DNA from: Isoetes taiwanensis
Taxonomy: Eukaryota; Streptophyta; Lycopodiopsida; Isoetales; Isoetaceae
Length of the DNA stretch: 64,000 nucleotides
Direction of reading: 5' to 3'
NCBI GenBank assembly: GCA_021234155.1
Contig: JAJEKV010000059.1
Location: forward strand, 2,434,182 to 2,498,181
The position numbers and the translations under genes were made by a program. Shown here one piece after another: positions 8,930 to 64,000 of this stretch. The notes under the pieces were generated by a model that saw only the letters and a list, made by a program, of their open reading frames with translations, was not told where the DNA came from and ran no database searches. Each line of letters opens with the position of its first letter. Positions within the stretch are counted from its first letter, which is position 1.

Positions 8930-9260
8930 ATAGGGAAGGGAAGGGTGCCTTTTTTGCGCTTTTTGCTCTTTTTGCCTTTTTTGCCCTTTTTTTTTTTTTT
9001 GGCCTTTTTGCCTTTTTTGCACCTTTTTGGCGAGGGTTTGGGTTTCTCTTGGCGGCATCAAGATCCATGGTGGTTAAGGTCGTGGAATCCGTTGGTGGTC
9101 TTGGGGCCATTAATGGCCCTCGCATCTCTGCCTTAGGGATCGCATATCGTGGATTTTTTTGGAGTTTTTGGCATCAACGACCATTGGATATGATGTGCTT
9201 CTGTAATTTGCGCCTTCTTGCAGGTTTCCCTCCAAACTTTGGAGGCTTTTCATCGATTTA
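8930..9260. other. T-rich low-complexity stretch upstream of the SEC11 pseudogene
   Basis: Repeated TTTTTGC and TTTTTGCC units at 8948-9030 give long but meaningless open frames (KKAKRAK on the minus strand, FFALFAL on the plus strand). No domain is present. It lies directly upstream of the SEC11 start codon and may be part of its old promoter or leader. Confidence 0.5.
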
Positions 9261-9437
9261 GCGCCTCTTTCCCATGATTTGAGATGCAAATGAACCTTGG
9301 ATCACTGACATGGCATGATCTCTGCTGCAAATCAAATGGATCATTGACATGGCAGTTCCAGGGCCTATGATGCATTGTTTCCTTGCTTTTATCCTTCAAT
9401 GCATGCATTGTAATGCCATTTTTTTTGTTCCTGCAGG

Positions 9438-9446
9438 TATAAATAG
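9438..9446 (+). promoter_or_regulatory. TATA box (TATAAATAG)
   Basis: A consensus TATAAATAG lies in a GC-poor context with a plausible start site about 30 bases downstream. Exon-like sequence follows, with possible donors near 9520 and 10150, but no recognisable protein. It may belong to a non-coding or decayed transcript. Confidence 0.4.
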
Positions 9447-9979
9447 GGCTCAAGCTCTTAGAGCGTGTGTGGTTTTTTCTTGACAAGCTTCTGCATCTCG
9501 AAGAGCACTGAAAAGCGAAGGTATTAGTTTTTTTTTTTTTAAATTTGATGTTAATTCAGGGCTTCAATGCAAGCATTCTGATGTTGTTTGATGTGCATAG
9601 GGCCTAAAGAATCAAAGCAATCACGCTTTTTCCTGGAGTATTGATTTGTGAACCCAGACATGTCCATCTCATATTGCATTTGCTTTCCAGCCCATTGATT
9701 GCATTTGTTTAAATCAATCTTAGATTAATAGGATTATTGCCTTTGCACCAATCCTGGATTTCCAGCTGCCATAGCACTAATTCTGCTATAAAGCATACAA
9801 ATGCTGAAAAGAAAATTGTCAAGGCCCCTGAATCATGGGCCCCTGAATCATTATAGATTTCATTGAAGATCTTCTCTATCAGAAAGGCTGATCTGCACTT
9901 TGATATTCTGCAAACCATGCTCTTGAAGCTCTTGAAGCACTTGCCATAGGAACCAGAAAAGGTTCAAGCAACAGCTATG

Positions 9980-10258
9980 GCAGTTAGAATAGAGTAGGAA
10001 AGATTGGCTGCAAGGGCATTAGCAGGTGCAACAGGTGTTGTAGCTAATACAGATGGGGGCTACGACATACGACATCAAATGATGTGGATGATTACAAATG
10101 GAGATCAAGAGGATGGAGCTGAAGCTTACATAGAGACACCTCAAACTCGTGGTACATTAATATTCTTTTCTTACTTTCTGCTCATGACTTTATTTTCATT
10201 GATATTACTTAATTTTACTAGTATTAACTTCTTATTGGAAGTACATTGCACGTGCTAG
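9980..10258 (+). other. Exon-like stretch of unknown product
   Basis: An open stretch reads LAARALAGATGVVANTDGGY then HQMMWMITNGDQEDGAEAYI before a possible splice donor at about 10151. It is preceded by a stop in the same frame. The following bases to 10620 have further short open pieces and a 57-bp tandem duplication, but no recognisable domain. I cannot name a product. Confidence 0.25.
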
Positions 10259-10390
10259 CGGGTTATGCTTGTTGAGATTAAATTTCTACCATTAAATTGC
10301 GGACTGGCAGGCAATGACTGCACTTGTTACATCTTGTACTCATGGTAAAGTATAATCTAATCTTCTTTTACTGAATTTTCACTACACCAT

Positions 10391-10504
10391 TAGTTTTTAT
10401 TGTCGAAAGTATATTGCAGGTGCTTGACAATGTTAATCAGCTTGCTTAGTTTTTATTGTAGAAAGTGTATTGCAGGTGCTTGACAATGTTAATCAGCTTG
10501 CTTA
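10391..10504. repeat. Tandem duplication of about 57 bp
   Basis: TTTTTATTGTCGAAAGTATA followed by TTGCAGGTGCTTGACAATGT is repeated head to tail with few changes, each copy ending in AATCAGCTTGCTTAG. It lies in an intron-like region. Confidence 0.75.
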
Positions 10505-10794
10505 GATTGCCTTCAACCTGCAGCAACAAGCAACAGGTCCAAGTTCAAAAGACTTTGATGGCTGAGCATTTAAGGGGCATATCACAGATGAGATCATGCA
10601 GGCCCGACTAGAACACTGAGCATTAGAATCAAATGCATTAGATGACCTTTACCTTGCTGAAGTGGTTAATCCATATAAGAAATTTGTGCCTTCAAAGAAT
10701 TTTGAAGTTTACAATATTGTGGCTCTTAATTCTTTTTTAAGAATAGTCCTATGAAACAAACAGCGTAGAGAACAACAATGTTTTGTATGTGTTG

Positions 10795-11973
10795 AAAAAT
10801 AGTCTACCGACGATGCATGCGGCGCTCTGGGCGACGGTTAGGGTGAGGCCATTGCCTCCCCACCCTACCTCCGGTACAACACCGGATTCTTGAAGGAGAC
10901 CAGTGATCGGTGAGAGGCCAGGCCAGGGTTTTGGGAATCGATCTGTGAGCAGTTTTTAAAATCTTTCCCAGGTTTTTTCGAGTTCTAGCTGTTTTGGCGG
11001 TCTTGGATTCTGTTTAGCTTTGTTCTGCTTTTCTTGAATCTTCCTTGCAGTCTTAAGAATTCATTTGCTGGCCTTTGGTAAATGCAATCTTGAGTCTGGG
11101 TCGACCTGGGAATGAGGTACATTGTAGCTCAAGCCTTACAAATCGTGGCAGTTTGAATCTTGGATTATTCTGTGGAGGTTTCATCTGCAGTAGAAGCATC
11201 GTGGATCTTTCTTGGAATTTGCTGGTTTATTCTTACCCTTTCCTACTGGCGGGAAGACTAAATATGTGGTTCAGGAAAAAACAGGTACCCAAGCAGTTCT
11301 GGTTTCTTTATCTTGTAATACAAGCAGGTTGAGTAGATTATTTTGGATTGGATTGCCGAGCTAGGGACAAGCTGATACCTATCTTGCACCGGGCTTTAAG
11401 GGAGAAGTCTGGCGGATGGAAATATTCTTTTTCTAGCCAGCTTCAGCGCCAGGTTGAATGCTTAACCCGACAATGCAGCATTTGATTCAATTTATTTTAC
11501 AGATATGCTTGGTTATAAGAGGGGAAATTGGAACTCATGAAACAGTGGCAGTTTCTATGAGCAAAGTGGCAGGTTGCTCTTCTAACACTGTTTTTTTCCT
11601 CGATCATACATTTAGTAGCATGGTAAGAATAAGCAGAGGTAGCTTGGTGTAGGAAGGTTGCCTACCCCACATCAAAGATTTATATGATAGTAATGCTAGT
11701 GATTTTGGTTTCACGGTGCTCCTGTGGAAATCAAGGATGTATGGGCTCCTTGATGGATCGTTTCAGAAGACATTGCGCAGGTCAGGCATCCTCGGATTTC
11801 TATCTCTTTCTTTTGATGTTATGCTTCTCTTTTAAATAAGTTTCAGTTTCAAAGAGGATGAAGATGTTGAGGTTACTCCTGTAGTAATCCTCAATAAAAC
11901 TTGAAGCATTGTACTCTGTACTTTTTATTCCATAAATATAAAATACAACCTTGCCCTCAAAAAAAAAAAAAAA

Positions 11974-12012
<39 letters not shown>
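10795..12012 (+). mobile_element. Non-LTR retroposon with poly(A)/(AAT)n tail and 18-bp target duplication
   Basis: The element is bounded by a perfect 18-base direct repeat, AATGTTTTGTATGTGTTG, at 10777-10794 and 12013-12030. Its 5' end is GC-rich and leader-like, an AATAAA signal lies near 11895, and the 3' end has about 17 A residues followed by (AAT)n. These are the hallmarks of target-primed reverse transcription. Open frames inside (85 residues or fewer) show no reverse transcriptase or ORF1. It is either an internally deleted LINE or a retroposed transcript. It interrupts the minus-strand proline-rich gene. Confidence 0.75.
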
Positions 12013-12016
<4 letters not shown>

Positions 12017-12042
12017 TTTTGTATGTGTTGCCCGTAAGTGGC

Positions 12043-12743
12043 CTTCATCCATCAGTTTCTTTCTTCTTTGTGTTGTACATGCCTTTTTCTGAAGGTTCCG
12101 TTCAAGTTTGTGACTAGCAGGAACCTTAAATTCGAACAAGTACTCTTTTCATTGAGGTAAGTCATCATCTGAGAGTGTGACACGAGGAGTTTCTTCGTCA
12201 GAAGGTTCAATAGCTGTTGGTGTGGCATTTGGTGTGGGCTCGTCAATGGAAAATGGAGAAGGACGGTCCCAAGGAAACAACAGTCTCGGCTAGTGTCTTA
12301 GTTCAACGGCTCCAGAAGTTTCATACAAAGGAGTAGCTAGACGTTGAGTGCTACTGCTGGGAGCTGCTATTGGGGCAAGGGAGTCAGGTGGGGAAGGTGT
12401 TAATGGTATTGGCGGTGGTAGTCTGCGCTGAAGTAGTCGTGCTGAAGGTAGTGTAGCTGAAGAATCCATTCTCTGTTCTGGTTGTGTTGAAGGTGTGAAT
12501 TGCACAGGCGAAGGAGCCTACGTTCAGCTTGAGGTGGGGGTGTTAACTCGAAGGAGGAAGTACGCGTCCGGGAGGTTCCGGTGGTGTAAACTGGACAGGT
12601 CGTGGGAGTCTATGTGGCACAGGAGGTGGGCTTTCTCTCTCGGAATCAGAATCAGGAGAAGTGAATAACACAGGTGGAGGAAGTCTACGAGTCGGTTGGG
12701 GATGTTCTGAAGCACTATTAACACCAGACATTTCAAGGATCAA
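12043..12743 (-). pseudogene. Proline-rich protein gene, frameshifted and truncated by the retroposon
   Basis: Minus-strand sequence from 12743 encodes MILEMSGVNSASEHPQPTRR and then a Pro-rich region with repeated PVQFTP-like and RRLPPP motifs. After a frameshift near 12520 the same style continues (PVQFTPSTQPEQRM, LPPPIPLTPSPPDS), then DEPTPNATPTAIEPSDEETP. A C-terminal basic block, FEFKVPASHKLERNLQKK, follows after another shift. The retroposon sits at the 3' end, and the frame can be followed past it. The start lies beside the palindrome-rich region shared with the divergent ParB/methyltransferase gene, so the two may have been co-regulated. No enzyme domain is seen; the product was probably disordered. 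Confidence 0.5.
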
Positions 12744-12752
12744 AGGAGTGGT

Positions 12753-13483
12753 CGGTATAAATTTATACCGCGGGCAGTCTGCTCTGGAAAAATAGACTTA
12801 AGTAACAAAACACCGTATAAATTTATAAGAAGACTAAACAAGAAGGAAAGACAGAGGATGACGTATATGAAATGCTATGGACAGACGCTTTACCAAAGGG
12901 CAGAGAACCGAAGTACTTAAAGCCGGCGAAGGCGCACTCATTTCCCACATAAGAGTAATGGAATCGAGGCGCTAGCCGCTCTGCCTTAAATACCTGCCCC
13001 TGTTTGCTCTCCAGCTTGCGTATAAAGATCTGCATCCGGACATGTCCACGTAAGTTGCGTTTCCGTACGGCTTTTATTTTTTATTATTTAGGTTTTCGTT
13101 TTGTTGTGTCCTCGAGCGGTATTTTTATACCGCTCAGTGGTAAGTTCGTGAGTGCTTTGACATGGGTGTTAACGTCATGGTAGAATTTTGTACCATTTTG
13201 TCTTTCTACATTGTAGAAAGTTAGAACACGACACCTAATCGGTATAAATTTATACCAATTAAGTGGCTGGGTTACAGAACACGGTATAAAATCTTAGATG
13301 TCTAAGCCTTACGCCACGGTATAAATTTATACAGTTTGAGCGTTTGGACGCGTTAAAAATTTATGCCATCTGTTCGTTTTTAAAAACTAAAGAACCTTTA
13401 ACCTTGATCTTGGTATAAATTTATACCGTAGTCAGCCACAGAAGAATATCGTTATGGACTCGACACGGTATAAATTCATACCA
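12753..13483. repeat. Cluster of TATAAATTTATA palindromes in the divergent promoter region
   Basis: The intergenic region between the proline-rich gene (minus) and the ParB/methyltransferase gene (plus) carries at least eight related sites. CGGTATAAATTTATACCG at 12753-12770 is a perfect 18-base palindrome. Others are at 12814-12827 (partial), 13114-13135 (TTTTT core), 13241-13256, about 13282 (half site), 13317-13334, 13412-13428 and 13466-13483. Each contains TATAAAT on both strands, so a bidirectional TATA function is one alternative to a protein-binding operator. Confidence 0.85.
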
Positions 13484-13619
13484 TTTTGACAAATCTTGCT
13501 AGAATATTGTGTAATTTACCGTAGTTTAGGCACAGGAAGTGTTCGAAACTGCTTTCTAAAGTGTAGGTTTTGGTATTTATTGTGTTGTAGAAAACGCTAT
13601 TTTGAAGGCCAAATTAACG

Positions 13620-13626
13620 TATAAAA
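13620..13626 (+). promoter_or_regulatory. Possible TATA box of the ParB/methyltransferase gene
   Basis: TATAAAA in the context ACGTATAAAACACG, 78 bases before the start codon at 13704. It is the only TATA-like element in the proximal region that is not part of a palindrome. Confidence 0.4.
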
Positions 13627-13703
13627 CACGATATTTTGCTGAATTCTGTACTTAAACATCAAATACGTCATGTTTACTTGAATGCAGCTCAAAGCAACTC
13701 ACC

Positions 13704-14536
13704 ATGAAGTTCAAAATGCCTAGAATGTCTGAGACTCTTACTCCGGAGGTGGAGACCTTTGATTGTAAAGATCTCCAATGGTTTGTGCATAGAGGTGCAA
13801 GGAAGAGAGCTCCTATAGATGTCTACCTCTTCTTGGCTAAAACTTCAGCGAAAGGGAAGTTCAAGGCGTCCGAATTCTATCCGGCCGGGGAACTCGCTTG
13901 TATCATGCCCACAGGAGAGGATGACGAGATCAAAACAAAGTGCACAAACAACGGCCGGGACATTTTGTACATTGTCAACTCCACCATGTTGCAAATGGGC
14001 TTGTGCAAGCAAAAAGATGTCTACGACTACCTCGACGAAAGTTTATCGGAAGGCCATGTAAGCTTCCTCTTTTTCTTTTCTTCTCCGTATAAATTTATAC
14101 GAATGTCTACTGAACCTTGGTGCCATTGCAGGACATTGTGGACGTTATTCAGTCAATTGTTAACTGTGAAGACCCTACTGTTATTCCAGGCTTGTGGTAT
14201 CCTGTGGAACCTGAACAAGATGAAGAAAAAAATGACGATAAAGTAATTGTCGAGGAAGTAGAAGAAGAGGAGTCTGAGCCAGAAGAAAATAAAATGACAG
14301 CTGCAAAAAAAAGATCTCAAGTGGTAGACACACAACCGCCAGTGAAGAAACCTCGGAGAACAAAGCAACTGAATAAGAAAGAATCTGAAGATGCTCTCAA
14401 AAAGGCACCTGGGGTTGATATGAACGTGAAACCATCAGACAAGGCAAGTGAAATTTTGAAGAAGGTGGCCGAAACGAAACTTGTGAAGGAATCAATTTCT
14501 CTCATGCATCAACACCATAAGGCCACCAAAAAATGA
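13704..14536 (+). pseudogene. ParB/methyltransferase gene, exons 1-2: novel N-terminal domain and charged linker
   Basis: Exon 1 (13704-14057) joins exon 2 (from 14132) across a 74-base GT-AG intron that itself contains the palindrome CGTATAAATTTATACG. The joined frame gives 252 residues. Residues 1 to about 160 form a compact domain I do not recognise (DLQWFVHRGARKRAPIDVYL, LYIVNSTMLQMGL, VIQSIVNCEDPTVIPGLWYP). They are followed by an acidic stretch (VEEVEEEESEPEE) and a basic, NLS-like one (KKPRRTKQLNKK). A stop at 14534-14536 falls after a run of six A. One base more or less there would carry the frame straight into the ParB-like domain, so I treat exons 1-2 as the N-terminus of the same protein. 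Confidence 0.6.
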
Positions 14537-14537
14537 A

Positions 14538-15411
14538 AGTGGGGTACAAGTCCGAAAGCTGTACGCTGCACATGTGGGTTTATTGAAGCAAAGAATGCGA
14601 CGGAATCCACATGCACATGTTTCGCCCCTTATTGTCATGGTAAACAGGGAACAATGTCCGGAGCTTAGTCAGTACAAAAAAGCTGACTTTGAAGATTATA
14701 TTTACTATGTTCTGGGTGGCACACACAGCTACAAGGCAAGATCAGAGGAAGTAAGCAGGAATGAGGTGTGGAAGACTGTCGAGGCCCACATTTACGTGGG
14801 CCTTACTGATGAAGAAGCTAAAATTGGCGCTGTTGTTAGCCACAACATTAATAATGATTTTAGAATGAGGATGAGCCTCATTGATAAGATAAGGTTTATG
14901 CATAGAGAATTTATAGAGTTCAAATCCCTTCATGGAGAAGATTTTAAAAAGCAAAAAAAATAAGCCACAGGAACTCAGGGAGGCGTGCATTAGGGCATAA
15001 GCATGCTACACCCTATCAAAAAAAGTACCATTTAGGAACCATAAAACTACCTAAATAAGTACCCAAGACTGGGTACTGGGTACTTTTTTAATGTCTCAAT
15101 AACTGCAAGAGTTAAATTGCATGCATTGATTTTGACCTTCAATAGTGTTGTCTCTATCTTAACCTTGAACATTAATATGCTTTTGACATTTTATGTTGAG
15201 TTTTTGACTTAGTTTTGACCAAAAGAAGAAGGAAACAGTACCCAATCCAAAAGTACCCAGTCCAGGTACTTTGGCAGGTTCCAAAAATGGTAGGGTGTAG
15301 CATGCATATGCCCATTACAGAGTGCTGCCTGTCTTACGACACAGAGAAAACTCCTATCATGGCTGTAAGGCAGTACGATAACTATTTCCAGCTTGCTTTT
15401 AGAGATGGTCA
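14538..15411 (+). pseudogene. ParB-like domain exon, frameshifted and interrupted by a MITE
   Basis: The frame reads VQVRKLYAAHVGLLKQRM, PLIVMVNREQC, YIYYVLGGTHSYKARSEEV, VEAHIYVGLTDEEAKIG, SHNINND and SLIDKIRFMHREF. This follows the ParB/Srx fold order: an arginine-led N-terminal strand and helix, the 'GxH' box where ParB has GERR, a target strand ending in a GL-DEEA motif, then HN-N and a helix. Such domains bind DNA or NTPs and are often fused to methylases in phages. The frame stops at 14961 after eight A. With seven A it would run on through ELREACITECCLSYDTEK and IMAVRQYDNYFQLAFRDGQ to a donor at 15412, once the MITE at 14993-15313 is ignored. ParB assignment is by motif pattern only. 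Confidence 0.55.
14989..15317. mobile_element. MITE inserted in the ParB-like exon (ATTA duplication)
   Basis: Terminal inverted repeats of about 25 bases, GGGCATAAGCATGCTACACC at the left and its near complement ending TAGCATGCATATGCCC at the right, bound a 321-base element (14993-15313). ATTA flanks both ends. An inner inverted pair, AAAGTACC and GGTACTTT, supports a foldback structure. Removing the element and one ATTA restores a continuous coding exon. A Harbinger-like (TWA) or another DNA-transposon family is possible. Confidence 0.75.
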
Positions 15412-15489
15412 GGTAAGACTAAACCATTGGTTTGAATAACATTGAGACAGTGGTGGCTTGTGTGTGCTTCGTTTTAGAATGGTAGGACC

Positions 15490-15647
15490 GCGTGCCTCAA
15501 GCGGTATATTTTTATACCGCCTCGTGCAAGCGGTATAAATTTATACTGCAAGATGATTTCGGTATAAATTTATACCGCACGCCCAAAGCTATATAAATTT
15601 ACACCGCTTCGGGTAAGCGGTATAAATTTATACCGCGTGAGGCACGC
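15490..15647. repeat. Foldback cluster of five palindromes inside an intron
   Basis: Palindromes at 15501-15520, 15530-15549, 15560-15577, 15588-15607 and 15617-15636 follow one another with short spacers. The whole cluster is framed by an inverted repeat: GCGTGCCTCAAGCGGTA at 15490-15506 against 15631-15647 (16 of 17 bases pair). It lies in the intron starting at 15412, and a further site lies at 15704-15719. Confidence 0.85.
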
Positions 15648-15748
15648 TGTAGATAATTAAACTGCAGCTGCAATGGTATTTCAGCTGGTTGTACTCCCGT
15701 TCTTGTATAAATTTATACCTTCTTTTCGTTGCTAATCTTTGTGTGCAG

Positions 15749-16216
15749 AGAATTGACTAGCATTTGGCATTTTAGGTGTAAGTTTTACAAGAGAGAATCT
15801 TTTGCATGTTCGAGGATGGTCAACTAAAGGAACAACAAGGAAGTACAAGTAAGAAGCCAAAGAAAGGAGGAGAATCGAAGCAAAAAAATATGAGCATCGT
15901 GCCCTGGACGCAGCTTCAGGGCCTCAAAAGTAAAGAAATACTAGTTAGGCTTCTTGAGAAAGTAGTGTCAGGGCAGTTCACCTTAGACGAAATGGCAAAG
16001 AAGGCAAAGACGTAAGTAGCATTAACCTTAAGCAATGTTTTAACTAGGTTTTTATGATTAAACTCTTCTTTGTGCAGTCAAAAGGATATAATGGATTATC
16101 AGACAGAGCTCATGCAGCAACTTAACCTTGAAGAATGGGAAGAATGCAGAGCTCTTTATCCAGGCAGCATTGCTGACAATGTTATTAGAGAGCACGCTGT
16201 TAACTTTAACGGCTAG
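15749..16216 (+). pseudogene. ParB/methyltransferase gene, two linker exons
   Basis: One exon (acceptor near 15748 or 15775, donor after 16011) reads MFEDGQLKEQQGSTSKKPKK, then WTQLQGLKSKEILVRLLEKV and GQFTLDEMAKKAKT. The next (16078-16216) reads QKDIMDYQTELMQQLNLEEW, then ECRALYPGSIADNVIREHA and VNFNG before TAG and a GTAGGT donor. The TAG may be a mutated CAG at the splice junction. The content is a basic, helical linker with no enzyme motif. Order and spacing place it between the ParB-like and methyltransferase-like parts. Confidence 0.5.
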
Positions 16217-16282
16217 GTAGGTGATTTTAATTTCTTATTTCCTTAGTGCCTTCTTACTGAGCATTTTTTATGACAGAACCAG

Positions 16283-16945
16283 AAAAAGGGCTACCTGCAG
16301 GACTTTTAGGTCTTGTTCGACGGACAAAAGAAGAAGCTAGACTTAAAGCTATAGAACAAGGCAAAGAGGTCGCTGCAAGCAGTTAGACGGACGAGTTCGA
16401 CAAGTTTACCCTTTTCGATCAGGATTGTTTGTACAGAGTTGTACTAGGGGACTGCAAAAATTTGCCGAATTTTGTGCCAAAGCAAAACTACACCCTTTGC
16501 ATTGCAGATATTCGTTATGGCTTCAAAATAAAGGACAGCATGTTTGATGATGAAGCTTTCAGTAGTAAGCAGGTCAAAGCATTTCTTGAGGGTCTGAAGG
16601 AGGCCGATAATTGGCGTGTCGTTATTTTCCACTCTGACCTGCAGACCATGTCTGTCTTAATGCCAATGGGTTTAGTGTGTAACGTTGGTTTTGAAAATTG
16701 TATTTGGTAAGGTTCTAAACCTCATGGTATAAATTTATACGGTTACTTAAGCTAATAGTGGCCTTTACAGGTTAAAGACAAATGTCAAAGGAAATGGTGG
16801 GGGACCAAGACTAGATACGCCTAATAACAAAGTTTTATACACGTATAAAACAAAAGATAAGCCATGGTGTGTTCACCATTATAAGGTGTGCACCAATGAC
16901 GGCACACCTACCAAGCAAACCATTGCATCCTACACGGGACTACGC
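16283..16945 (+). pseudogene. Beta-class DNA methyltransferase-like domain, 3'-truncated
   Basis: The frame from about 16283 reads LPAGLLGLVRRTKEEARLK, has a TAG stop at 16384, then continues to LYRVVLGDCKNL, YTLCIADIRYGFKI, WRVVIFHSDLQTM and, across an intron at 16707-16770, WLKTNVKGNGGGPRLD. LGDC followed by a DPPY-like motif and then a W-K-N block is the layout of N4-cytosine/N6-adenine methylases with motif IV before motif I. Here DPPY is DIRY, which weakens catalysis. The C-terminal FxGxG (SAM-binding motif I) is missing because homology ends near 16945, where the kinase gene begins. The intron carries one more palindrome (16726-16742). As it stands the enzyme would be inactive. Confidence 0.6.
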
Positions 16946-16947
16946 CT

Positions 16948-18400
16948 CCTTTCAAATTGCATAGTTTTTCTAGCATTGAGGAGATAATTTTTCATGTTCG
17001 AGGCATATATAAGGATCTCAAAAGCAGAATGGAGACTATCTCTGTGTGCACTAATCAATGCAAATTTCTTATGGAGACAATCAAATTCGTTGTAGAATGC
17101 ATGGATGTGTGGCATTCTACAGGCCTGGATATCCAGATCTCTAACGACATTTTAGAAGGGCTGATAGTTTTGTTGTATAAGGTGATCATTATGTTTGCCA
17201 AATGCCAAAAAAAAGGTGCGTGGTTGCTGCAGGCTGCAGTTGATGAAGAGAACAGACTCACAAATTATAGCAATGCATGAAGATATATGTAAATATGTTG
17301 GCCTTATTGGTCCCTTGGTTGCAGATGGAACGGAAGTTCCTCAGACATTACTGCTCCAAGAGGAGAGGAAAAAACGAGATCTAAATTCAGCTGCAGATTC
17401 GGATAGGCAACATCTGCTTCAGCTTCTGGAGGCAATGGCAATGTCCCAAGAGAGTATACTGGCAGCGTTTGCTTACAAGGTAATGCAAAGCAAAAATTTT
17501 GCAGAACCTATCATAGAGTATGATGAGTTCAAGAATCAAAGAAATATTGGAAGAGGTTCATCTGCAGTAGTATATAAAGTAGAATGGCTGCAGCAGCAAT
17601 TTGCAGTAAAGGAGTTTGATGATGTGAATGATGATGTTTTCAACGAGGAACTCTCTGCACTTGTTTCTGTAAGACATCCAAACATAGTGCGTTTATTTGG
17701 TCATTCTCAAAATCCGCGAATTGGATCTCATTGTCTCATCATGGAATTGATGGACATGAATTTGGGACATCTGATCAATGCACGGAAAAGATTGGGAGAG
17801 AAAATGGCCCTAGACATATTTCTTCAAGTTGCAAAGGCTATGGAATACCTCCATGAGAACGATGTCGTTCACCGTGATCTTAAGCCCCAGAACATTATGG
17901 TGTCTTTTCATTGCTCAGATAAACAGTGTGGAGGACCTGTGGACGAGATCGTCCTTGCTAAAGTAGCAGATTTTGGATTGGCTAAGACCAAATTTGAATC
18001 CTCAAAAGGTACCTTAGGAAAAGGAACGTATTATTACATGGCACCCGAGTTATTCCATGGCAATGACGGGTACATTACAAGGAAGATAGATGTTTATAGC
18101 TATGGCATGACATGTTACCATCTCTTGAGTGGAGAAAAACCATTTTCTAGTATTCTTGATAGCCAACAGGAGCCGTTGATGGAGAGATTAAACAAACTTT
18201 CTACATTGTTAACCAGCGGACAGCGGCCAGCATTGAACTCCAATGTTCCAGAAATTTTTCATGAATTACTAGCAAAATGTTGGCATTCAGATCCGTCATG
18301 ACGACCGCCTTTTAAGGATATTTGCATGATCCTCGAGGATTTGCGCAAGAAGATGCTTCTTAGGAGGACCCGTGAGGTACCTTGCTGATTTAGAACTTCC
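16948..18400 (+). pseudogene. MLKL-like protein kinase (helical N-terminus plus Ser/Thr kinase), broken
   Basis: The N-terminal frame to 17277 (SFSSIEEIIFHVRGIYKDLK, KFVVECMDVW) is an all-helical region like the four-helix N-termini of plant MLKL-type kinases. A one-base shift near 17270 moves to the frame that runs to 18301. The kinase domain begins about 17515: glycine loop GRGSSAVVYKVEW, lysine in FAVKEF, HRDLKPQN (catalytic loop), ADFGLAKTK, GTYYYMAPELF, and DVYSYGMTCYHLL. All catalytic residues are present. A TGA at 18299-18301 replaces what was probably CGA between DPS and RPPFKDICMIL, cutting subdomain XI. The left end abuts the truncated methyltransferase, so the promoter is lost or shared. 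Family members relay stress or defence signals. Confidence 0.75.
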
Positions 18401-18735
18401 AACCGTAGATAACAATCTAATTTGTGCTCCCTTTCCCAGGACAGCCCTTCGAACCCCTGTCTCGGACATGAAAAGAGTTTCATGACATGAAAAGATGGAT
18501 GTCCTAATAAACTATCATGATATTCTATATATCATCATACTATCATAGAGTTTGGTTTGCTTTAGTACCATGCTTTGATTGATTTTGGTTTGGTACTATG
18601 TTGTTATTGATTACTGACTTCTAGTATATCAAGGCAAAGGTTTTTCCTTCAAAACTTTAAAAGACACGAGTTTTTTAATTCTTGTGATGATGGTGATGGT
18701 TGTACTACCATATTGCCGATTAGGGTTGCCCTCCA

Positions 18736-18925
18736 GTGGAAACCCTTCCGGGATTCCATGGGAACCCTTCCGGTAATGAAACCCAGAAGGGTTTCCATGG
18801 AAAGCCGGAAGGGTTGGCTTTCCATGGAAACCCTTCCGTATTTCCAGCGTTTGAAATTCGGAAGGGTAGGGTTTCCACTTTGGAAAACTGGTAGGGTTTC
18901 CATGGAAAACCGGAAGGGTTTCCAC
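18736..18925. repeat. Complex inverted-repeat element, GTGGAAACCCTTCCGG family
   Basis: The block starts with GTGGAAACCCTTCCGG and ends with its exact complement CCGGAAGGGTTTCCAC. In between are at least five more direct or inverted partial copies of GGAAACCCTTCC and several TCCATGGA palindromes. It could fold into a long multi-stem structure. Smaller relatives are at 19035-19083 and 24631-24675. Open frames through it are by-products of the repeats. Confidence 0.8.
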
Positions 18926-19034
18926 AAAATTTATTTATAAAATGTTCACACGCGTGAGCCTTTATGGGTCACGCTTCTCGACACGGACGCCTTCCATTAA
19001 GATGGCACGTCATCCTAAAATTCAAATTTTTAAA

Positions 19035-19083
19035 TGGAAACCCTTCCGAGTTTCCTTGTCAAGGAAAACAAGAAGGGCTTCCA
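19035..19083. repeat. Small hairpin of the GTGGAAACCCTTCC family
   Basis: TGGAAACCCTTCCGAG and the imperfect complement AAGAAGGGCTTCCA enclose a TTTCCTTGTCAAGGAAA inner stem. Confidence 0.7.
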
Positions 19084-19089
19084 CGGGAG

Positions 19090-21260
19090 CAATTCCAATA
19101 TCTATTCTGGTTCATGATCATATAATTGCTATAGAAATGCTTATGGTGGCGCCTTCTATTCTATGTCCACCTCCACGATGGAATTCAGCTTGCATTTGCA
19201 TTTGAATTTAAGCCTTGATTCTACATTAATTTAATTTATGTTCCAATCCCTCTAATCCCTAGTCTTTATTTCAGTTTCTACTATTTAAAATGTTTCTGTA
19301 ATAGTGCTTCCTTCAGTTTTAGATCATGTTCCAGTCTCCGCGCTATTTCTTGATTCTACTCCTACTTCCACCCATGCTCCTGGTCTATGTACTGTAGTGC
19401 TAGACCCTCCAATGCTCTCGAGCATTAACTCTAAGTTTACATTGCTTTTTCAGATCTTGCTTCTACACTAGAACTTGTTCTATGTCTAGATCTCATTTGA
19501 GATCAAGATCTTGATATTGATTTGAGTCCAAGTTTGATTCCAATTATTCAGCTTCTAGTCATATTGTTAGCCCTTAGTGTGTACATATTTCGAGTCAGAA
19601 CTAGTATCTCCATATTAATTTTGTATTGGTGTTAATGAGCTTAAAGCGTTAAGGAATTTAGCGTTCAATGCTTCAAGTCAAGGAATTCAGTGTTCAATGC
19701 TTCAAGTTTATGAGCCTTCTGCCTAGGAATCTAAAAATTGTCTTATAACCGTTTGCATAGTTTACCTATAAGATATGTGGTTATTGTGCATGAGATCAAG
19801 GTATACAATATCTTTTAATTTCCTTTATTCAATGACATAGCATTAAGCTCAGCACTCCTCAACAGCACGCCAACAAGCACGCCAAATAGGTGTATGTTAT
19901 TCATAATTTGAGTCTTCTAATGCCAGTATAAATACATACACTAGCTATTGCTTGCAAATTTCCTAACTCAAGATGATTGACTAAAAAAACATCATGTGCA
20001 TAAGTATAGCTCATTTGAACGGAATAACAATGAGATGCCATAATATGGTAAATTTACATGCATGCAGCCTGTTTTATACAATAAACACACATTAACCACT
20101 TTCATTGACAAAATCCAGATCATATTATTAGTCATATTCAACATGCTAAAAAATAATCAACAACATGGCCAAAATAGTAAATGGTATCCAAATATTATGG
20201 ACCAAATCTGTAAGTAGCTATTTTTAATCATGTTAATCAAGAACTATTTCCAAGTAAAATTATGTTTGCTTGTACATTCTTCAAAGACAGAAGCAAGGAA
20301 AGATCTCACCACATGTTAACTACTATCGAACTCAATCAACAATTTTAAATCCAAAAACCTTGCATAAAAGTATTCGAGACTGCATGTGCCTGTTCCTAGT
20401 CCTTAAAACAATTTTGTTCGCCTTTGTTGTTGAAGTCCATTCTCTTACAGAATTTTGAACTCCTCCTTACAGAATGTTCTTTCTTAGCATCATGGAGCAT
20501 TTGCCCTAGACATTCCAAAGAATCAAAAACCTTTTTTCTTACCATTATGTAACATCGGCTTCCAGTTGTTGAGATATTCGTCCCTTCACCAAGAAATTCC
20601 TTCATACTATAATGGAGCTACCAGCTCACAATAGTTCCAATAATTCCAAAGCAATCGTTCTCAGAACATTAAATCCAACTCTTTGACACCTGAACATCAA
20701 ATAAACCCAGTTAAAACAGAAACACGGTTCTTACATCCACAAATTGAGTAAAGACAGCATAAGAGATATGACAAAGATATAAATCTTCATTCGGCTGCAT
20801 ACTTAGACTTCATTCTAAAACATCCAAACTATAAGGCTTGAACATCATTTTTATCAAATGCCGATCGATCCGACGGATCGAGACTCTCAGGCAAGATGAG
20901 CATGCATGCGTTGCATGCCTTGCATGCATGCATTGCATACATTTTTGGGTCGTTCATCCAGTTAGGGGATCGCTATTTCTTCCAGAGTTCGCCTCCAGCT
21001 TCTCATCGGCGCTTTTTCTTCTCCCAGCAGTGTCTCAGGTTATGTTCTATGCTCTCCCTCTTTCCCTCCCTTAAGTATTTTGTTTATATATGTTGTTCGC
21101 GTGGCACGCGCTTTAATCAGCCCCTCGCTTTTTCGAAGTTTTTTTGTTCTTCTCTATTGCATTTTGTGGTGATGTGCAGGTACAGGAGTGATGCATGACG
21201 TTGGTTTCTCTATGGAGCGTGGGTTTTTTTGGGAAATTTAGCAGCCGGTATTGTCTAAGC
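19090..21260. other. No recognisable gene
   Basis: AT-rich sequence with only short open frames. A direct repeat, CAATGCTTCAAGT, occurs near 19667 and 19696, and a run of CATGCATGC-type palindromes lies at 20898-20935. A 69-residue minus-strand frame at 20396-20605 (GTNISTTGSRCYIMVRKK) looks protein-like but matches nothing I know. From 20840 to 21480 the base composition is more transcript-like (leader or 3' UTR), without a product. Confidence 0.5.
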
Positions 21261-48120: not shown

Positions 48121-48300
48121 CATTTTGCACAGCGTGTTGATACATCACAGCCTGCTGATACATCAAACATGATATCCAGTCAGTGAGAAATGATAAAGTT
48201 GCACAGCATTGTATTAAACATCGACGGAACAAAATAACGCCAGGCGTGATTTGCTCATCGCGTTAAATCAGGAAAAGTACGGCTAGCGTGGTTTTAACCA

Positions 48301-48950
48301 TTAAAGCACGCCAGACGAGATTTCATTTAAGCCAAAAGAGCAGACTAAATCACGCGGAGCGTGATTTAATCTGGCAATCAAACACCATTAAAGCACGCCA
48401 GACGAGATTTCATTTAAGCCAAAAGAGCAAACTAAATCACGCCGGCGTGATTTAATCCGCAATCAAACACCATTAAAAACGCCCGGGCGAGATTTCATTT
48501 AAGCCAAAGAGCAAACTAAATCACGGCGGGCGTGATTTAATCGGGCAATCAAACACCATTAAAGCACGCATGGGGCGAGATTTCATTTAAGCCAAAAAAA
48601 GCGGAGACTAAATCACGCGGAGCGTGATTTAATCTGGCAATCAAACACCATTAAAGCACCCCAGACGAGATTTCATTTAAGCCAAAAGAGCAAACTAAAT
48701 CACGCGGAGCGTGATTTAATCTGGCAATCAAACACCATTAAAGCACGCCAGACGAGATTTCATTTAAGCCAAAAGAGCAGACTAAATCACGCGGAGCGTG
48801 ATTTAATCTGGCAATCAAACACCATTAAAGCACGCCAGACGAGATTTCATTTAAGCCAAAAGAGCAAACTAAATCACGCGGAGCGTGATTTAATCTGGCA
48901 ATCAAACACCATTAAAGCACGCCAGACGAGATTTCATTTAAGACTAAAGA
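48301..48950. repeat. Eight 87-bp tandem repeats, each with a CACGCGGAGCGTG palindrome
   Basis: Units start with TTAAAGCACGCCAGACGAGA at 48301, 48388, 48473, 48559, 48651, 48738, 48825 and 48912. Each carries AAATCACGCGGAGCGTGATT. Units 2-4 differ mainly in the GC-rich cores (CACGCCGGCGTGA, CACGGCGGGCGTGA), while the AT-rich remainder is almost constant. Confidence 0.9.
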
Positions 48951-49543
48951 CAAAATTGTATCACGCCTGGCGCGATTTCATACCTTTCATCTTGGTTTTC
49001 GCCGTTGTTTGGTCATCTTGTCCGATTCATTCTTCCTGGAGAAGAGAAGAGCGTTAAGTCCAGCTTGCCATTGTCTTGACCCTCTTCCTCTTTGGCACTG
49101 CAAAAACAAGCAGAATTATGATTTAGCAAATACGAGATCACGCTTGGCGTGAATGAAAGCTCGCATTATCTAATTCACGCTTAGCGTGAATTAAACGCTC
49201 ATACTAGTCCAACTCCACCGTGGCTTAGGGCATCAAAAACGATTCCACATAAAACAAAAGAGTTCAAAAAACAAACAGGATTGAAAGCTTACACGCTTGG
49301 CGTGTATTCTATGACAATCAGCAGTTTAACAACTGTCTACTTACGGTCACTATTAAATTATGAATTTCATTTTGGTTTCATTTCACGCCCTATCTTACTA
49401 ATAATTTTGCCTACGATTCCTATGATATGTCATATCTTACTAATAATTTTGCCTGCGATTCCTGTGATACGAAAATCCTATGGTACGAAAATTTTGGCCT
49501 ACGACATTTAATTCGCGCCACTAAATCGTCTCTTTAAGGTATT

Positions 49544-53106: not shown

Positions 53107-54479
53107 CAATGTTGGAAGACAACTGGAAAGGTAAGGGAATGTTTTGGTTGTGTCAAGCAATTGGAGGTTCCTTGCATCATGCCATGGCCTATGAATAGTG
53201 TTCAGTTTGTGGAGGATTACCTTTTTCCAGAGCCAGAGGTTGTTGGGGATAATGATTGTCTTGATCCTGATCCATTGGCAGTGGGTACCCTGAACCTAGG
53301 CAAACGGGGAGAAGTATCAGTTGTCAGACATTATCTTAGCAAGAGAGCCAAGTTGATTAGTGATACAACACCTGAGACTATGTTGAAGGTTAGGGGCTTA
53401 CATTGTTGTTGGGCTAGTTGTATGCAATTCTTTACAAGAGAACAATTGGTGGAAGCAAGAGCCACTATTCAAGAGTATACTGTTGATGAAAGAAGGACCT
53501 ACATGTACTCAATTTTCGAGCATGCACTTCAGGATGAAAGAGATCCAAAAAATAAAAGATACCCTTTGCTAGGCAAATGGATATGTAAAAAAGCATGGCG
53601 GAGTATCCATGCAATTCCAGATTCATCATGGTACAATTACAAAAAAAAGCAGGCAGAAGGGACAAGGATTGCTTTGCATGGAAATAATGGCTTGTTGAGA
53701 CCAACCGCTAGGACATTGGCTGCGAGGGAGATATTTGAAAAATATATTGAGTTCAATGCAGAGTGTATGCCACACAAAAGCAGAAGGGATGAGAAGAGAA
53801 CAGCAGTTGTTGAGAAAAGGTTACCATCACATTGTACTCAAAAAAGTATTTTGGAGGAAGTGAATTCCCTACTTCGAGAATTGGAAATTCCTCCAATATC
53901 CCAACCTAGCTTTAGTAGGCTATGGAAGAAGCATTTCAATCATGTGACCATAGCAACTTCAAACAACTTTGCAACCAGAGTCAAAGGGCTAGGATCTAGT
54001 GCACAGGTTGGACCTTCACGTGCTAGAGCTCAAGATCTGCCTAGAAGGCTCCTCGTGCAACCCAATAATTGTGCTTGGGGTTTTTGATGCCTGGGCATAC
54101 CCATGAGGATGTGGATGCATTTTTTGGCAAGTATAGTTGTGTACTGAAGCAGCACTACTCCAAACCCTATAGGCTCTCTCGTAAAAGAGTGCCTGATTGG
54201 AAGAGTTTTGTGGATGGTTATACCTTGGATCTTGAAGCTCATTCTAGGCCTCTTCAATTCACCACTTTCTGGGTGGGAGATGGGATTCCAATATTTCAAT
54301 GGAAGACGAGACCTTCAGAGGAAGAGTGGAGAGGAGGGGAGGAAATATGGCATAGGGATGAGAATAGCAAGCCTATGATGCCTCCAGGTAGAAATGTGAG
54401 GATTACAATACCTCAAGAGACAAGGAAGAAGGCTATGATATCTTTGGGGTTGCTTGAAGAAACTGAAAGAATTATGTAA
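53107..54479 (+). pseudogene. Transposase-like protein with GHTHED motif, internally deleted and frameshifted
   Basis: One frame (starting by 53161, open upstream to about 53107) encodes 308 residues: SVVRHYLSKRAKL, LKVRGLHCCWASCMQFFTRE, YPLLGKWICKKAWRSIHAIP and LEIPPISQPSFSRLWKKHFN. A one-base shift near 54070-54085 leads to the second frame with FLMPGHTHEDVDAFFGKYSC and DWKSFVDGYTLDLEAH, to a stop at 54477-54479. GHTHEDVD is the signature of the DUF7869-type transposase-like family found in many eukaryotes. The catalytic middle, normally several hundred residues between these parts, is missing, so the copy is dead. No terminal repeats were identified. Confidence 0.55.
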
Positions 54480-61409: not shown

Positions 61410-64000
61410 TTTTAAGGCTCAAACATGCCACATAGGCTCCAACATACCACCTAGGCTCCAACTATGCCACGTGGGCTCCAACATGCCACCTAGGCTACAC
61501 CATGCCAAGGTGGCTTCAACTTGCCACCTAGGATCCAACATGCCACCTAGGCTCCAACATGCCACCTAGGCACCAACATGCCACCTAGCATGTCGAGGTG
61601 GCTCCAACATGCCACCTAGTCCAACATGCCACCTAGGATCCAACGTGCCACCTAGGCTCAAACATGCCAAGGTGGCTCCAACTTGCCACCTATATAGGGT
61701 CCAACATGCCACCTAGACTCCAACATGCCACCTAACATGCTGAGGTGGCACAAACATGCAACCTAGGCTCCAACATGTCACCTAGACTCCAACTATGCCA
61801 CGTGGGCTCTAACATGCCACCTAGGTTACAACTATGCCATGTGGGCTGCAACATGCCACCTAGGCTCTACCATGCCAAGGTGGCTCAAACATGCCAACTA
61901 GGATCCGACATGCCACCGAGGCTCCAACATGCCACCTAGGCTCAAACGTGCTAGGGTAGGTTCAACTTGCCACCTAGGATCCAACATGCCACCTAGGCTC
62001 CAACTATGCCACGTGGGCTCCAACATGCCACCTAGGCTCCACCATGTCAAGGTGGCTCAAACATGCCACCTAGGCTCCAACATGCCACCTAACATGCTGA
62101 GGTGGCTCAAACATGCCACCTAGGCTCCAACTATGCCACATGGGATCCAACATGCCACCTAGGCTCCAACATGCCACCTAGGCTCAAACATGCCAAGGTG
62201 GGCCCAACTTGCCACCTAGGATCCAACATGCCACCTAGGCTCCAACTATGCCACATGGGCTCCAACATGCCACCTAGACTCCAACTATGCCACATGGGCT
62301 CCAACATGCCACCTAGGCTCCAACTATGCCACCTAGCATGCCGAGGTGGCTCAAACATGCCACCTAGGCTCCAACATGCCACCTAGGCTCCAACTATGCC
62401 ACATGGGCTCCAACATGCCACCTAGGCTCCACCATGCCAAGATGGCTCCAACTTGCCACCTAAGATCCAACATGCCACCTAGGCTCAAACATGCCAAGGT
62501 GGCTCCAACTTGCCACCTGGGATCTGACATGCCACCTAGGCTCCAACTATTCCACGTGGGCTCCAACATGCCACCTAGGCTTCACCATGCCAAGGTGGCT
62601 CCAACTTGCCCCCTGGGATCCGACATGCCACCTAGGCTCAAACATGCCAAGGTGGGTCCAACTTGCGACCCAGGATCCAACATGCCAAGGTGGCTCCAAC
62701 TATGCCACGTGGGCTCCAACATGCCACCTAGACTCCACCATGCCAAGGTGGCTCAAATATGCCACCTAGGATTCAACATGCCACCTAACATGCCGAGGTG
62801 GCTCCAACATGCCACCTAGGCTCCAACATGCCACCTAGGCTCCGATTATGTGACATGGGCTCCAACATGCCACCTACGCTACACCATGCCAACTAGGATC
62901 CAACATGGGCTCCAACTATGCCACATGGGCTCCAACATGCCACATAGGCTCCACCATGCCAAGGTGGCTCCAACTTGCCACCTAGGATCCAACATGCCAC
63001 CTAGGCTCAAACATGCCAAGGTGGCTCCAACTTGCCACCTAGGATCCGACATGCCACCTAGGCTCCAACTATGCCACGTGGGCTCCAACATGCCACCTAG
63101 GCTTCACCATGCCAATGTGGCTCCAACTTGCCACCTAGAATCCAACATGCCACCTAGGCTCAAACATGCCAAGGCGGATCCAACTTGCCACCTAGGATCC
63201 AACATGCCACCTAGACTCCAACTATGCCACGTGGGATCCAACATGCCACATAGCCTCCAACTATACCACATGGGCTCCAATATGCCACCTAGGCTCCACC
63301 ATGCCACCTAGGCTCCAACTATGCCACCTAGCATGCCGAGGTGACTCAAACATGCCACCTAGGCTCCAACGTGCCACCTAGGCTCCAACTATGCCACATG
63401 GGCTTCAACATCCCACCTAGGCTCCACCATGCCAAGGTGGCTCCAACTTGCCACCTAGGATCCAACATGCCACCTAGGCTCAAACATGCCATAGTGGCTC
63501 CAACTTGCCACCTAGGATTCGACATGCCACCTAGTCTACAACTATGCCACGTGGGCTCCAACATGCCACCTAGGCCTCACCATACCAAGGTGGCTCCAAC
63601 TTGCCACCTAGGATCCAACATGCCACCTAGGCTTAAACATGCCAAGGTGGGTCCAGCTTGCCACCTAGGATCCAACATGGCACCTAGGCTCCAACTATGC
63701 CACGTGAGCTCCAACATGCCACCTAGACTCCAACATGCCACATGGGCTCCACCATGGCAAGGTGGCTCAAATATCCCACCTAGGATCAAACATGCCACCT
63801 AACATGCCGAGGTGGCTCAAACATGCCACCTAGGCTCCGATATACGACATGGGCTCCAACATGCCACCTAGGCTACACGATGCCACCTAGGATCCAACAT
63901 GGGCTCCAACTATGCCTCATGGGCTCCAACATGCCACCTAGGCTCCACCATGCCAAGGTGGCTCCAACTTGCCACCTAGGATCCAACATGCCACCTAGGC
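61410..64000. repeat. 19-bp minisatellite with 153-bp higher-order repeat
   Basis: The unit is GCTCCAACATGCCACCTAG (19 bases), with variants ending CCAAGGTGG or CCACGTGG. In the regular part, one 20-base unit (GCTCCAACTATGCCACGTGG) and seven 19-base units form a 153-base higher-order repeat, for example 62909-63061 and the next period from 63062. The array is still running at the window end. Because 153 is divisible by three, it produces open frames of up to 157 residues on the plus strand and shorter ones on the minus strand. These are not genes. Confidence 0.95.

Follow-up and report, generated by a model that had tools for sequence, protein, structure and literature searches.

The stretch analysed here, 64,000 nucleotides of Isoetes taiwanensis DNA (contig JAJEKV010000059.1, positions 2,434,182 to 2,498,181; hereafter the window), carries a member of a family of DNA transposons that is broken and truncated, and this copy cannot itself encode an enzyme. 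Members of the family combine a putative transposase gene with a divergent gene for a ParB-like protein bearing a DNA methyltransferase domain (ParB-methylase), and with arrays of a short palindrome. We regard the locus as, probably, a decayed Sola1-like copy from a family whose ParB-methylase reads or marks the family's own palindromes, either against silencing or to regulate both promoters. An original prediction, made from the letters of this stretch, had picked out 13704-16945 as a spliced ParB-methylase gene with its own palindromic sites. The type of gene was read correctly and the palindromes are real, but the set begins about 950 bp further left, at 12754, and the prediction overlooked both that this copy is dead and that the gene is part of a larger unit with a divergent DUF7869 gene.

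A family of DNA transposons with its own palindrome

The palindrome of the window copy and its closest relatives (subfamily A) has the consensus CGGTATAAATTTATACCG. With up to three mismatches allowed, the 64 kb contain 17 matches where 0.61 were expected, a number reached in none of 100 shuffles, and 16 of the 17 lie within 12754-16741. Across the genome searched (1,658,258,908 bases), exact 16-mers number 7218, whereas the reversed control is absent. A protein search of the same genome with the ParB-like exon of the window gave 150 dispersed matches listed of 2506 rough candidates, and 120 of those 150 have no stop in the exon (counted from the table); the methylase exon gave 150 matches listed of 1788 candidates.

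Twelve aligned stretches of 10 kb around family members share a common unit. The full element is about 8.6 kb long (about 8.56 kb in locus L005), with AACAAAGTTTAAAATGAAACG... at its left end and the inverse of AACAAGGTTTAAAATGAAACG... at its right. Inverted ends and 4-bp target duplications (gtat, ttgt, tata, agtt and attg) were present in all five A copies that show both ends. A DUF7869 protein (expectation value (E) 4.7e-54 in L007), which we take as the family's transposase, is encoded in the left half, in the leftward direction; DUF7869 was not met as a name in the literature searched. The right half is read rightwards, divergently from the DUF7869 gene, and holds the ParB-methylase gene, whose six exons in L007 give 937 uninterrupted residues in a reading that has no assigned start codon, with GT donors at five of five splice sites and AG acceptors at four of five. 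Sola1 DNA transposons are defined by a 4-bp target duplication together with inverted ends, and both features were found in every full-size copy whose two ends could be seen (5/5 in A, 2/2 in subfamily C). Judged from these features the family is a DNA transposon, Sola1-like by architecture; the selfish module suspected earlier is a unit of this kind.

Sampling that started from the palindrome led to the same family. All ten A-type clusters sampled belong to it: nine, fetched from the first-listed contigs, contained family ends or internal sequence in every case, and the tenth (C4) was judged by a ParB exon match between its palindromes. Each of four C-type clusters likewise contained C-type ParB-methylase sequence, not all of it open. 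By the test that the original prediction had set for itself, the palindromes in this sample accompany paralogues of the gene and not unrelated genes.

The arrays are also carried by short derivatives. Three copies of about 2.2 kb (L018, L024 and L026) have both ends (29/30) and 7-10 palindromes, and gave no match to the transposase, ParB or methylase domains; L018, L020 and L026 still show vestiges of exon 1. Four-base-pair duplications flank three of four short copies (L018, L024 and L021, not L026). A DNA search with L018 listed 22 near full-length relatives besides itself among the 40 candidates scored of 2887. Since these domain-less copies carry arrays, the arrays are among what such copies keep.

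The divergent gene encodes a methyltransferase and a ParB-like part

The spliced L007 protein matches the methyltransferase family PF01555 (N6_N4_Mtase) with E 3.3e-15 and 57.1 bits, against a curated cut-off of 26.7, and a single exon of one relative does so with E 2.3e-11. In methyltransferases of the beta class the order of motifs is permuted, with motif IV, (D/N/S)xPY, preceding an FxGxG-type motif I. L007 has DIPY at 643 and DAFSGSG at 807, and therefore shows the beta-class order; both motifs are present in several further copies, and DAFSGSG in copies from each of A, B and C. The best named solved structures for the L007 methylase are CcrM, MboIIA and RsrI, which suggests adenine specificity without proving it; the N4-cytosine enzyme PvuII was a weaker match in the structure database (E 0.0024).

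The ParB-like part was recognised through the partition family phrog_1033, which matched 10 of 11 family members scanned, the window exon among them, with a best E of 6.8e-7. Two further ParB PHROGs match more weakly, and DUF6551 matches the L007 protein weakly and below its cut-off (E 0.016). DUF6551 is counted among the ParB-CTPase fusions in the available text of PMC12704722. The earlier proposal of a gene with a ParB-like and a methylase part, accompanied by palindromes of its own, was right. No relative turned up when viral_contigs was searched with the ParB alignment. Among 15 phage matches listed of 479 records, all cover the methylase half together with the sequence immediately preceding it and none the ParB part, and the annotations of three phage stretches (no profile scan was made) name nothing as ParB. 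Because no phage ParB partner was met, we claim no phage donor.

Palindrome arrays lie between the genes and in methylase introns

Sites were mapped in ten full copies with at most one mismatch; an eleventh, L003, had no anchor and was left out. The 248 mapped sites comprise 133 between the divergent genes, 106 in the position ranges of introns (8 in intron 1, 58 in intron 2 and 40 in intron 5), 8 where the methylase gene ends (3') and 1 in the exon-1 range (L010). None lies in the transposase half. Intervals of 80 bp or less fall at 28-33 bp in 166 of 249 cases. Helical phasing of the sites is suggestive only: the copies share ancestry, and the full A copies are not centred on a multiple of 10.5 bp. 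In four copies the last palindrome overlaps the coding end and supplies a TAA stop (oriented coordinates L005 8202, L007 8211, L010 8187 and L012 7708).

That the densest array, with more than half of the mapped sites, sits between the divergent genes would suit auto-regulation, in which the protein represses the divergent promoters or controls copy number through them and methylation tunes its own expression with no role in host silencing. The other 115 sites lie elsewhere, mostly in introns, and the domain-less copies keep arrays that a pure autorepressor would not need. We consider auto-regulation unlikely, though the strongest of the alternatives.

Palindromes switch between subfamilies

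Three subfamilies could be told apart, each with a palindrome of its own, and both the transposase and the ParB-methylase differ between them. Exact A sites occur in all 21 A loci and in the window stretch, where exact sites of type B or C are absent; the seven C loci all have exact C sites and lack exact sites of the other two types. Elements of subfamily B carry GTATGAATTCATAC, which is exact in four of six B loci (one site in L013, two in L014, five each in L017 and L033); the ParB parts of two B elements are 59% and 65% identical to that of the window. Of 50 places listed for the degenerate B-type pattern GTATBAATTVATAC, 35 have the symmetric G..C form, 5 are otherwise symmetric and 10 are asymmetric, and the G..C-form sites cluster at B elements (clusters C919, C1034 and C1037, for example). 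L013, picked for its B-type methylase, also has three near-matches to the C palindrome with one mismatch each.

Elements of subfamily C carry GTATTCCGGAATAC, the core of which occurs 3720 times genome-wide against 0 for its control. Their transposase is about 57% identical and their ParB part, where it aligns, about 47-50%. Fifty-five C sites give a 26-bp palindromic consensus, CAAAGTGTATTCCGGAATACACTTTG, and by hand count 32 of 46 intervals of 80 bp or less measure 41-43 bp. The C elements end in AACAAGATTGCG.../AACAAGGTTGCA..., with 4-bp duplications (catt and aaac) in both copies that have both ends visible; ends and duplications together show them to be the same kind of transposon as A. 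One C-type locus, L030, yielded only transposase and exon-1 matches, with no ParB or methylase exon found.

The arrays of B and C lie, like those of A, between the genes and in an intron, and all three palindromes have the outer halves GTAT/ATAC in common. Because the palindromes are subfamily-specific, they are likely to be recognised by a protein that the element encodes, and their distribution is the pattern that coevolution of protein and site would predict.

Constraint on sites and genes

Between paired copies, the sites differ at 0.8-6.8% of bases and the adjoining sequence at 15-36% (7 pairs; gapped or poorly aligned sites were excluded, leaving from 12/21 to 27/29 sites per pair), a comparison in which aligners may lock repeats together. 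The lone site in intron 1 is the cleaner test, since it has no array around it and avoids this bias. Of the 14 copies compared, the window included and L004 not among them, 11 have its 14-bp core exact and two keep 13/14 and 12/14 bases; the core is absent from the B copy L017. Outside this site, intron 1 looks very dissimilar by eye when the window is set beside L007 and the other copies.

These comparisons bear on whether the arrays are simply selfish tandem repeats or hairpin formers, kept by gene conversion and recognised by no protein. Some linkers are indeed repeated within arrays, and tandem-repeat finding detects the array in the window. However, the linkers are far more diverged than the cores, and the intron-1 site has stayed exact in most copies with no array to convert it; a hairpin, moreover, needs symmetry only and not one fixed 14-mer, and the three subfamilies have three fixed sequences that share their outer halves. 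We hold this explanation to be very improbable.

The ratio of non-synonymous to synonymous divergence (dN/dS) was computed from unshifted copies only (of 16 sequences, 13 for the ParB exon, four for methylase exon 5, three for the last exon and three for a transposase piece); a codon comparison that included frameshifted copies was discarded, as these inflate dN. For the ParB exon, the median dN/dS is 0.021 (44 of 78 pairs usable), a value biased downward by the ranking of loci on similarity to this very exon. With a median dS near 0.7 and dN near 0.015, the exon does not look like a set of neutral copies and is under strong constraint. Methylase exon 5 has a median of 0.069 (4 of 6 pairs).

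Mosaic copies separate the arrays from the transposase

Compared with seven other A copies in 500-bp bins, L005 is 85-99% identical in the transposase half and 61-97% in the methylase half. L007 shows this contrast strongly and L006 weakly. The identity of L007 to L005 falls sharply inside the transposase gene, near 3100-3150 of L005, where 100 bp take it from 92% to 60%. In several copies the transposase halves look young and alike and the ParB-methylase halves older and diverged, and modules of different history seem to have been joined within the family. The palindrome arrays sit on the methylase side of the breakpoint. Since the loci had been chosen by their ParB exon, we do not uphold the idea of faster decay in transposases than in ParB exons.

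Subterminal repeats serve as transposase binding sites in other plant DNA transposons, and the palindromes could be sites of this kind, with the ParB-methylase doing something else such as protecting DNA ends. Non-autonomous copies must retain what the transposase needs, and they do retain arrays; the transposase, too, differs among A, B and C. Against this, the arrays are central, lying between the genes, in methylase introns and at the 3' end, with no mapped site in the transposase half, and in the mosaic copies they go with the diverged ParB-methylase side and away from the transposase. Binding by the transposase strikes us as a poor explanation, less credible than auto-regulation.

A model of self-marking

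In the model that we favour, recognition by the ParB-methylase, the protein would bind the palindromes of its own subfamily, probably as a dimer and perhaps cooperatively across arrays at spacings of about 28-33 or 42 bp. It would then methylate adenine in or near the palindromes. The resulting self-mark would shield promoters and introns from host silencing in every copy, acting in trans on those that lack the domains, or alternatively would regulate both promoters. Confidence falls along these steps, all of which we infer: binding to its own sites is fairly likely, methylation at those sites has about an even chance, and an anti-silencing or self-marking role is a tentative proposal. A more elaborate version, which we find doubtful, makes the prokaryote-type ParB-methyltransferase a self-recognition code. 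The protein of each subfamily would read its own palindrome of 14-26 bp, in which the outer GTAT/ATAC would be methylated and the centre would confer specificity; all copies, domain-less ones among them, would bear N6-methyladenine or N4-methylcytosine and so escape silencing by 5-methylcytosine (5mC), and switching would give rise to non-cross-reacting lineages.

Several observations weigh against recognition and marking by a ParB-methylase. The ParB assignment rests on PHROGs and the weak DUF6551 match: of the profile searches first proposed, that for N6_N4_Mtase succeeded in relatives, but the Pfam ParB family found no match in the spliced L007 protein, and sequence searches of the PDB with the ParB-like part returned no ParB. 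A single-sequence fold model of the window's ParB exon is poor (predicted local distance difference test score, pLDDT, 47; predicted template modelling score, pTM, 0.41). At the box-II position, 11 aligned members read GGTH[S/N]YKA, without the arginine. That arginine is required for nucleotide binding by ParB-CTPases (PMC12704722, available text), and its loss means that clamp-type nucleotide binding may be lost as well. The B type depends on four related loci, two of which (L017 and L033) also have one exact A site each, and the degenerate B-type pattern is hardly in excess genome-wide (89 against 73 for its control). Two further loci with B-type methylase exons, L015 and L016, have no detected ParB exon and no exact site of any type. 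The intron that holds an array is intron 2 in A and B and intron 3 in C. Since both proteins differ between subfamilies, covariation alone does not identify the reader of the sites. Finally, besides the bias in the ParB-exon ratio, dN/dS is 0.26 for the last methylase exon and 0.27 for the transposase piece, from one usable pair of three in each case.

The copy in the window

At the left of the window copy, tblastn with the N-terminal frame of the L007 transposase places a remnant of the divergent transposase gene at 12014..12737 on the minus strand (E 1e-34 and 4e-10). It comprises the N-terminal, proline-rich part only, and no DUF7869 domain was found in it. A possible second and different DUF7869-like remnant lies at 53161-54215, where a 308-residue open reading frame is followed by HTHEDVD (tblastn E 7e-4 to the transposase).

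The palindrome scan places exact sites between the divergent genes at 12754..12769 and 13241..13256 and another exact site at 13412..13427; sites with one mismatch at 13318..13333 and 13467..13482; one with three mismatches at 12814..12829; and degenerate sites, also with three mismatches, at 13179..13194 and 13352..13367. The ParB-methylase gene follows on the plus strand. Exon 1 (13704..14057; tblastn 37% to L007 residues 4-126) is an N-terminal segment without a known domain (no Pfam match), and the intron-1 site, with its exact 14-bp core in the copy comparison, stands at 14086..14101. Exon 2 (14132..14992) consists of an acidic linker and then the ParB-like domain (14508-14957), which is 80% identical to L007 by tblastn and matches phrog_1033 with E 7.8e-4; frame reading and tblastn reveal a stop and a frame change near 14534. 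The exon is interrupted at 14993..15313 by a 321-bp insert unrelated to the family, a small transposon whose 26-nt arms are 92% complementary; ATTA flanks the insert on both sides. Homology to exon 2 picks up again at 15314 and continues to the exon end (15314..15415, tblastn 85%).

Intron 2 contains five palindromes at 29-bp spacing (15503..15634; two exact, the rest with 1-3 mismatches), found by the palindrome scan and by tandem-repeat finding, and one more with a single mismatch at 15704..15719. By tblastn, exon 3 spans 15785..16012 (left border approximate) and exon 4 16078..16213 (right border approximate), both on the plus strand. Exon 5 (16277..16706, plus strand; tblastn 68% to L007 residues 567-712) encodes the first half of the methyltransferase (LGDC...), with an in-frame stop at 16384 and DIRY for motif IV where most relatives have DIPY. 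After a palindrome with one mismatch in intron 5 (16726..16741), an open frame at 16771..16984 (plus strand; frames and tblastn) is what remains of the last exon, and relatives align with it at 16772-16813 (LKTNVKGNGGGPRL) only. DAFSGSGTT, the S-adenosylmethionine-binding motif I, was not found within 9001-20000, and no transposon ends are recognisable at this copy (best match 21/33). A Pfam scan of the window's own exons matched neither ParB nor the methylase; IgA0_D2, VbhA and other weak Pfam matches on these exons fell below cut-off and were disregarded.

Near the right-hand cut-off of the transposon copy begins a protein kinase open reading frame (17195-18301; PF00069 E 1e-49). Elsewhere in the window lie an 87-bp tandem repeat (48297-48954; 7.6 copies, 91% matches) and a GC-rich minisatellite with a 19-bp unit, AGGCTCCAACATGCCACCT, in about 138 copies from 61415 to the window end at 64000.

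Discussion

In bacterial ParB-parS systems, palindromic sites lie near the gene for a ParB-like protein. The Isoetes sites differ in being far more numerous and in lying between genes and in transposon introns. Fusions of ParB-CTPase domains to N6_N4 methyltransferases exist in phages and prophages, with the same domain pairing and the same association with mobile elements (PMC12704722). The Isoetes ParB part, unlike the prokaryotic fusions, lacks the box-II arginine, and a cognate palindrome array for such fusions was not met in the available text of that source.

The closest architectural parallel is Sola1-1_Ec32 of the brown alga Ectocarpus, a DNA transposon with a ParB-like and N4C/N6A methyltransferase gene on the strand opposite its transposase, for whose product self-binding and self-modification have been proposed; green and red algal transposon ParB-methylases are cited in the same paper (PMC12477816). 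Whereas Sola1-1_Ec32 measures 21.5 kb, the Isoetes element is about 8.6 kb and resides in a vascular plant. The string 'palindrom' does not occur in the main text of PMC12477816, and the cognate arrays, the subfamily switch and the array-bearing derivatives of Isoetes met with no counterpart for Sola1-1_Ec32 in that text. The original statement that no plant system of this kind had been described holds to the extent that the titles and abstract openings searched showed no land-plant case; the transposon ParB-methylases of brown, green and red algae were already known (PMC12477816).

A functional parallel is VANC of the Arabidopsis VANDAL transposons, for which anti-silencing has been shown (PMC5735166). 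VANC, too, is an accessory protein encoded by a transposon, with short motifs that form arrays in noncoding parts of the family it belongs to and that differ between families; VANC21 binds the 9-base YAGTATTAY (PMC5735166). The Isoetes family shows this pattern of element-specific noncoding motif arrays that differ between subfamilies. The motif of VANC21 is not palindromic, whereas the Isoetes sites are palindromes of 14-26 bp and the protein has a methyltransferase domain. The likeness lies in the pattern of motif arrays. Sequence-specific self-marking against silencing, resembling VANC, would be the most likely mechanism.

What appears to be new is the presence of cognate arrays, the change of palindrome from one subfamily to another and the occurrence in a vascular plant. 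Titles and the openings of abstracts, the scope of our search, which left subscription papers and preprints aside, yielded no land-plant ParB-methylase transposon and no cognate palindromes. For the algal ParB-methylases a function has been proposed and no target site was met in the text of PMC12477816; the Isoetes palindrome is a candidate for the cognate site. Thousands of site copies and three natural specificities within one sequenced plant make binding and methylation directly testable. If methylation proves true, the family would provide a vascular-plant example of a mark other than 5mC written by a transposon, and would solve by an enzyme the problem that VANC solves.

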